Positions 27,747 to 29,371 of a stretch of DNA of 64,000 nt are shown piece by piece. The notes under the pieces are model-generated. The model was not told the origin of the DNA and searched no databases. It saw only the letters and a program-made list of their open reading frames with translations. How positions within the stretch are numbered: the stretch's first letter is position 1; every line of letters begins with the position of its first letter. Source of the stretch: Pseudomonadota bacterium (GTDB lineage Bacteria > Pseudomonadota > Alphaproteobacteria > SHVZ01); contig JACQAG010000034.1 of assembly GCA_016195085.1 (NCBI GenBank), positions 1 to 64,000 on the forward strand. The letters are read 5' to 3'. The position numbers were made by a program, and so were the translations under genes.

Positions 27747-28442
27747 ATGGCCCGGCACCTGCCCGAGGTGCGCCTCTTCAGCCTCGAAGAGGGTGCGGCG
27801 GCGGCCGTGGGCACGGTGGTGGTGATCGACGTCTTTCGCGCCTTCACCACTGCGGCGGTGGCGCTCGAGCGTGGTGCCATGCGCGTTCTCATGGTCGCGG
27901 ACATCGACACCGCACTTAGCCTGAGGAGTGCGGGGGCGGTCGATGTCTGCGTCGGCGAGCGTCACGCGGCCAAGCCGTCAGGCTTCGACTTCGGCAATTC
28001 GCCGGCGGCCCTCGCCCGGGCCGACTTGACCGGCCGCCGGATCGCGCTCACCACCTCGAACGGCACGCGCGGGCTCATCGCCGCGCGCGGGGCGACACGC
28101 CTGTTTGCCGGCGCCTTGGTCAATGCTGGGGCGACGGTCGCGGCCATCCAAGCCGAACGCCCTCGGGTGGTGAGCCTGGTTGCCATGGGAAGCCGCGCCG
28201 GCCGCGCCGCCGAGGACGAGCTCTGTGCGCTCTATCTCCGCAGCCGGCTCCTCGGTCTCCACCCGGATTCGGCTTCGGTCGCCGCCGCCATTCGGGCCTT
28301 GGTGGCGCCGATCCCCGAAGCCTTGCAGCGGAGCGGGGACTATCCGCCTGAGGATCGCGCCATCGCGCTCGATATCGATTCCGTGCCGATCGCCGCACCG
28401 GTCGGGAGCAAAGGCGAGCACCTGGCAGTCGGCCGGCGTTAG
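27747..28442 (+). CDS. ComB-like 2-phosphosulfolactate phosphatase family protein
   Basis: A 231-residue ComB-fold protein with VVVIDVFRAFTTAAVALERGA, VGERHAAKP, GFDFGNSPAAL and LTTSNGTRGL, all hallmarks of the family. ComB removes phosphate from 2-phosphosulfolactate in coenzyme M synthesis. In bacteria without coenzyme M the family's role is unclear, so the substrate here is not claimed. It starts three bases after ettA. Its stop overlaps the stop of the convergent DUF1330 gene by two bases. Confidence 0.85.
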   Translation: MARHLPEVRLFSLEEGAAAAVGTVVVIDVFRAFTTAAVALERGAMRVLMVADIDTALSLRSAGAVDVCVGERHAAKPSGFDFGNSPAALARADLTGRRIALTTSNGTRGLIAARGATRLFAGALVNAGATVAAIQAERPRVVSLVAMGSRAGRAAEDELCALYLRSRLLGLHPDSASVAAAIRALVAPIPEALQRSGDYPPEDRAIALDIDSVPIAAPVGSKGEHLAVGRR

Positions 28443-28726
28443 ACGCCTTCGACGATGAAGAGCCGCCCGGTCGAGGTGGCGAAGCGGAGCCGCAGAATTT
28501 CCTGGTAGTCGGGCGAGTGATAGAAGCGCTCGGCCGTCGCCTTGTCGGGGAACTCGATGACGACGACGCGATTGGGCGCGGCACCCTCCAGGCTCACCAC
28601 GTTGCCGCCGCCGCGGACGATGAAACGGCCGCCGAACTTCGCGATGGCACCGGGAGTCTGCGCCTTGTAGGCCTCATAAGCCTTGGGGTCGGTGACTTCG
28701 ACCTCGGCGATGACATAGGCGGAAAT
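28439..28726 (-). CDS. DUF1330 protein with an apparent ATT start codon
   Basis: A 95-residue DUF1330 (dimeric alpha-beta barrel-like) protein. After the start it reads SAYVIAEVEVTDPKAYEAYK, a normal N-terminus, then VVVIEFPDKATAERFYHSP and a C-terminal LFIVEGV. No ATG, GTG or TTG precedes this in frame: the upstream codons are GCC, GAG, CAG, GCC and then TGA. The codon in the start position is ATT at 28726-28724, and AGGAGG (28737-28732) lies five bases before it. The first in-frame GTG is about 40 codons in and would destroy the domain. It follows mlaC by 15 bases. Function of the family is unknown. Confidence 0.82.
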   Translation of the reverse strand: MSAYVIAEVEVTDPKAYEAYKAQTPGAIAKFGGRFIVRGGGNVVSLEGAAPNRVVVIEFPDKATAERFYHSPDYQEILRLRFATSTGRLFIVEGV

Positions 28727-28741
28727 CGGGGCCTCCTGGGC

Positions 28742-29371
28742 TCACCCGGCGGACTGCAATTCCTTGGTCTTGCTGCGCAGCGCATCCAGGAGACCGGAGA
28801 TCTTACCGCCGTTGCGCTGAATGACCGAGGCGAACTCCGAGCGCTGCGTCACGCTGAGGCTCACACCCTCGACCACCACATCGACGATCTTGAAGCCGTT
28901 GTCGGTCCGCAACACCCGCCAATCCACCCGGATCGCCTGGGTCTGGCCCTGGCGCAAGATATGGCTTTGCACCAGCACGACCTTGTCGTCCTCGGGCTGG
29001 GCGCCCGTCACCTTGAAGCTCTCGCCCTGGTAGTCGGCAAAGCGCTGGGCATAGGTGGTGACGATGAGATCCTCGAACAGCTTCAGATATTCCTGGCGCT
29101 CCGGCTCGCTGGCGTCGCGCCAATAGCGGCCGAGCACGAAGCGGGCCATGGCCGGCACATCGAAGCCCTTGGTCAATAGCTCGCGGAACCGCAGATTGCG
29201 TGCGGCGGCATCCAGGTCCTTGCCGGTGAGCAGGCGAATCGCATCGTCGCTCAGCTGCTTCACCAGCTTCTGCGCCTCTTCCGGCGATTCGGCGGCGCCG
29301 GCCTCGGGACGGAGCCAGGCGGTGAGGATCAATCCTGCGGCAGCGGCGGAGAATATACGTCGTGTGATCAT
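28742..29371 (-). CDS. mlaC: MlaC-like phospholipid-binding protein
   Basis: A 209-residue periplasmic lipid carrier. A signal peptide ends near EAGAA (residue ~26). The MlaC pattern is visible in FDVPAMARFVLGRYWRDASEPERQEYLKLFEDL and DWRVLRTDNGFKIVDVVVEGVSL (each shown across a longer match). In the Mla system MlaC ferries phospholipid between the outer-membrane MlaA and an inner-membrane MlaFEDB importer. The latter is not in this window. Its start overlaps the mlaA stop as ATGA. Confidence 0.9.
   Translation of the reverse strand: MITRRIFSAAAAGLILTAWLRPEAGAAESPEEAQKLVKQLSDDAIRLLTGKDLDAAARNLRFRELLTKGFDVPAMARFVLGRYWRDASEPERQEYLKLFEDLIVTTYAQRFADYQGESFKVTGAQPEDDKVVLVQSHILRQGQTQAIRVDWRVLRTDNGFKIVDVVVEGVSLSVTQRSEFASVIQRNGGKISGLLDALRSKTKELQSAG

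Follow-up and report, generated by a model that had tools for sequence, protein, structure and literature searches.

Gene structure and location of the DUF1330 gene

The window, a stretch of 64,000 nucleotides from a draft genome of 4.8 Mb in 95 contigs, contains the only DUF1330 (PF07045) gene of that source genome. The gene lies on the minus strand at 28439..28726 and, read from an ATT codon, consists of 95 codons and a TAA stop (28441-28439). Its assignment rests on Pfam, coding signal and orthologue identity. Upstream lie the lipid-transport gene mlaC (PF05494; 28742..29371, minus strand; E 1.6e-45) and mlaA (PF04333), and downstream a convergent 2-phosphosulfolactate phosphatase-like gene. 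The mlaC stop, TGA at 28744-28742, is in frame with DUF1330 and stands 15 bases (five codons) before the ATT, and the frame is open from this stop to the TAA. The sequence after the TGA, in the DUF1330 frame, is GCC CAG GAG GCC CCG ATT TCC GCC TAT GTC ATC GCC GAG GTC. Here ATT at 28726-28724 (28724..28726) is the inferred initiation codon, and AGGAGG at 28737-28732 (28732..28737), a Shine-Dalgarno (SD) match on the same strand, ends 5 bases before it. The original prediction gave the gene a span of 28439-28742; the coordinate 28439 is retained, while 28742 already belongs to the mlaC stop, being its last base, and is corrected to 28726. No Rfam families or tRNAs were found within the window.

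The 95-residue product spans the whole PF07045 model (profile 1-94 of 94, E 7.5e-32) and scores 110 bits against a gathering cut-off of 23. By sequence profile, the solved structures 2fiu (E 7.5e-22) and 3lo3 (E 3.6e-11) are members of this family; they are structural-genomics entries without a name, and in both the N-terminal half lies inside the domain. In the open literature DUF1330 is mentioned in seven papers, but in no title or abstract. At 28600-28615 (minus strand) the protein carries one glycine more than its family orthologues, reading RGGGN instead of RGGN.

The initiation codon

In the DUF1330 frame, the stretch from the mlaC TGA to the ATT contains no ATG, GTG or TTG. The first such codon is the GTG of codon 43 (28598..28600, minus strand), an unlikely start, and initiation there (from 28600) would cost 42 conserved residues, against the roughly 40 first estimated. 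Compared with five relatives, codons 2-42 show dN of 0.17-0.23 and dS of 0.66-1.60, and codons 43-95 are alike. GC at third codon positions stands at 0.83 for codons 2-42, against 0.86 overall, and the coding score of the 42 codons ahead of the GTG equals that of the remaining gene. Because codons 2-42 are constrained like the rest and the N-terminal half is part of the domain, a GTG start is not credible; judged from the sequence, no ATG, GTG or TTG fits the conserved N-terminus. The SD match is strong, with AGGAGG separated from the ATT by a 5-base spacer, and just 50 of the 1769 clear genes of the source genome carry this motif with a usable spacing. RNA accessibility near the start (0.39, against 0.36-0.50 in relatives) is not distinctive. 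The original prediction, in which ATT was the only sensible start, preceded at five bases by AGGAGG and with no canonical codon back to the in-frame TGA, is borne out on each of these points.

Translation might also proceed without the ATT, by readthrough of the mlaC TGA to give an MlaC-DUF1330 fusion, by initiation at the GTG of codon 43, or from an out-of-frame ATG followed by a frameshift. The in-frame position of the TGA and the availability of the GTG speak for such routes. MlaC proteins, however, are secreted as a family, while DUF1330 lacks a signal; the GTG start would drop nearly half of a domain that is evenly constrained, and no slippery site like that of prfB was seen. In the relatives, moreover, 7 or 8 bases separate the mlaC stop from the ATG, and the stop is in a different frame from DUF1330, so that no conserved fusion exists and the readthrough product was rejected. 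Translation by any of these routes appears very improbable.

Orthologues and the origin of ATT

DUF1330 follows mlaC directly on the same strand in the window and in five (G002-G006) of the six other family genomes, all six of which belong to another genus; the gene order is the same in these five same-family metagenome-assembled genomes. Identity to the same-family orthologues is 64-68%. At the start position all five carry ATG, from which the window departs with ATT. Homologues from named genomes numbered 79: at the aligned start codon 66 have ATG, 8 have GTG and 2 have TTG, the remaining three begin one codon earlier, and ATT was found in none. The near-cognate codon is not conserved among orthologues, and by parsimony it is probably a derived G-to-T change private to the source genome, since the family orthologues, although of another genus, all have ATG. 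The spacer between mlaC and DUF1330 is longer here and carries the full AGGAGG, which the relatives lack.

The original prediction treated ATG in close relatives as a sign of sequencing error. ATG was indeed found in all five orthologues; by itself, however, it is no proof of an error. An error of this kind would mean that the true codon is ATG and that the assembly holds either an incorrect consensus base or the base of a minor strain variant. Against an ATT start, all five orthologues have ATG, which a single substitution separates from ATT, so that a single G-to-T error would also explain it. The source genome is also a draft of many contigs, and the case was chosen for its oddness, which favours errors. 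Alternatively, the start may have been lost recently and in reality, leaving DUF1330 as an incipient pseudogene with negligible product, whose frame is intact only through youth. The private ATT would agree with this, as would the general dispensability of DUF1330, which was matched in 28 of 60 genomes and is missing from many relatives. Against it, the gene has no stop or frameshift and keeps its conserved residues, and the strong, well-spaced AGGAGG is not common to the relatives.

Other ATT, ATC and ATA starts in the source genome

A sample of 2.36 Mb, half of the source genome, was scanned with a dicodon coding model for which known genes served as the seed. Its 2152 gene calls were ranked by the coding signal lost before the first ATG, GTG or TTG. 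A model trained on the longest open reading frames was dropped, as it was contaminated by antisense shadow frames. DUF1330 took rank 1 among the 2152 calls, and prfB surfaced through its programmed frameshift and served as a positive control. About five genes started by ATT, ATC or ATA (ATH) were found in this half of the genome: DUF1330, xthA, an AsnC/Lrp-type regulator, purM and infC. AGGAGG is present in two of the five, DUF1330 and infC.

In infC (contig C32) the start is ATC behind AGGAGG with a 6-base spacer, and in six same-family genomes it is ATA or ATC, in line with what is known of infC. In the AsnC/Lrp-type gene (C1:4188-4712, minus strand), ATC with AGGAG at 7 bases is the only plausible start; no close orthologue was found, and the case depends on the SD motif and distant N-termini. 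For xthA, of the exonuclease III type (C6:42952-43836, minus strand), ATT is the only plausible start. In most same-family relatives an ATG stands one codon downstream; G006, which is without ATG, GTG or TTG, apparently uses CTG. A methyltransferase gene (C35, 4806-5627) without a near canonical start was left uncounted, as it has only distant homologues (38% or less).

A widely conserved case is purM (C3:40942-42045, minus strand), with an ATA start and GAGG at 5 bases. ATA is found in all six family genomes that contain this end of the gene, in the pattern GAGGA(C/T)(A/G)CC-ATA. In about ten further alphaproteobacterial families ATA, ATC or ATT stands at the corresponding place, usually with GAGG 5 bases before it, while other families have ATG, GTG or TTG. 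In several of the families with ATA, ATC or ATT, the stretch from the upstream stop to the conserved N-terminus has no in-frame ATG, GTG or TTG. A literature search, with most subscription journals outside its reach, found no paper on a near-cognate purM start.

As infC, purM, xthA and the AsnC/Lrp-type gene are without a usable canonical start, their sequences indicate that ATH initiation operates in this lineage. The original prediction that ATT-type starts belong mainly to infC, making DUF1330 unusual, does not hold for this genome, in which purM (ATA), xthA (ATT) and the AsnC/Lrp-type gene (ATC) also lack a canonical start. A changed initiator tRNA that reads ATH was considered as well. 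The pattern GGGCTNNNAACCC has two matches in the source genome, both lacking a CAT anticodon, while GGGCTCATAACCC, the anticodon arm usual for initiator tRNAs, was found in none of the seven family genomes. Unassembled rRNA operons are the probable cause, though a variant initiator tRNA may be present.

Start losses compared with nonsense breaks

Random substitutions, be they errors or neutral decay, meet 88 sites per gene that can give a nonsense codon but only 7 at which the start can be lost. With a detection power of 0.319 for nonsense and 0.231 for start lesions, 0.057 start lesions are expected per nonsense lesion, or 0.025 when only ATH is counted. At an equal threshold, the in-frame nonsense breaks seen in half of the genome numbered only two, and the private ATH starts three. 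The nonsense breaks are a TAA in a gamma-glutamyltransferase-like gene (C39:43776) and a TGA in a small kinase-like gene (C22:8214), each of which may be a pseudogene or an error. The observed ratio has p about 0.0015 under random substitution (0.00013 for ATH only), and 0.016 (0.003) without DUF1330; as the events are few and some of them were classified by eye, these values are support rather than proof. In a sugar-isomerase-like gene (C39:146589-147173, minus strand), the upstream part seems to run on in another frame, a frameshift, deletion or assembly fault.

Base errors would create in-frame stops far more often than they would abolish starts, and the nonsense breaks are too few for random errors to yield three private ATH starts, so that the ATH starts are probably real. 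The private cases, moreover, are all ATH codons with an SD-like motif and not a mixture of AAG, ACG, AGG and CTG. A base error at the DUF1330 start is considered unlikely. The two interrupted genes speak for a recent start loss; the excess of ATH starts over nonsense breaks, however, runs against that reading, and it is regarded as rather improbable.

Proposed weak initiation at AUU

The explanation preferred here, with moderate confidence and on the basis of sequence comparison, is that an intact, mlaC-linked DUF1330 gene had its ancestral ATG changed to ATT and would still be translated weakly from it, helped by the SD motif and held down by IF3. After the change from ATG in this lineage, AGGAGG 5 bases upstream would keep the 30S subunit at AUU, and ribosomes that finish mlaC 15 bases upstream might help by re-initiation. 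Initiation by fMet-tRNA on AUU would then proceed with reduced efficiency under IF3 discrimination, and DUF1330 output would lie below the AUG level and drop when IF3 is high. Translation at the ATT, its strength and its sensitivity to IF3 are the inferred parts of this scheme.

Published cases support each of these steps. A switch from AUG to AUU, it is true, is rare, with one in 61,358 reconstructed AUG starts, a figure from annotated genes only, which mostly cannot begin with AUU; in the same study a stronger SD tends to accompany suboptimal starts (PMC5622118). In S. aureus, expression from AUU and AUA starts that have an extended SD is about 10% of that from AUG (PMC13009471). IF3 represses non-canonical starts such as the GTC of sigR and the ATT of infC (PMC5472188), and in E. 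coli the SD lessens IF3 inhibition of re-initiation (PMC2268962).

The nearest known systems are E. coli infC and pcnB (AUU), in which, as in DUF1330, an ATH codon stands on an intact gene and low, IF3-sensitive initiation is expected (PMC5472188, PMC13009471). The infC start is ATC in Streptomyces and AUA in S. aureus. Autoregulation of infC, however, is specific to the IF3 gene, whereas DUF1330 is not known to be linked to IF3, and its ATT occurs in one genome only while its orthologues have ATG. The S. aureus genes cvfC1 (AUU), ccpN (AUA) and citZ (AUA) combine a near-cognate start with a strong SD, as DUF1330 does, and the AUA of citZ is likewise limited to one lineage, as the ATT is to one genome (PMC13009471). 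For those three starts the proof came from ribosome profiling and from reporters, whereas the evidence for the DUF1330 ATT is that of sequence. Streptomyces sigR similarly has a single non-canonical start, repressed by IF3, that sets a low protein output; it differs in its codon (GTC) and in having an experimentally shown regulatory role (PMC5472188), none being known for DUF1330.

Implications for near-cognate initiation in Alphaproteobacteria

DUF1330 is probably a further gene with a near-cognate start, a known phenomenon, unusual yet not unique in its own genome. A broader proposal, offered only tentatively, is that the lineage may use ATT, ATC and ATA as a regular minor start class including infC, purM, xthA, DUF1330 and the AsnC/Lrp-type gene. 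Some members, such as purM, would be conserved, IF3 activity would jointly set their level, and DUF1330 would be a recent entrant through its ATG-to-ATT change and new AGGAGG. Conserved in many families, purM provides a testable core metabolic case beyond infC, and, provided that the starts are real, its translation should vary with IF3. Pipelines that accept only ATG, GTG or TTG truncate or lose such genes; the earlier expectation that gene-finders so limited would truncate or miss DUF1330 is supported. If these starts are real, near-cognate starts would be commoner in Alphaproteobacteria than annotation suggests.
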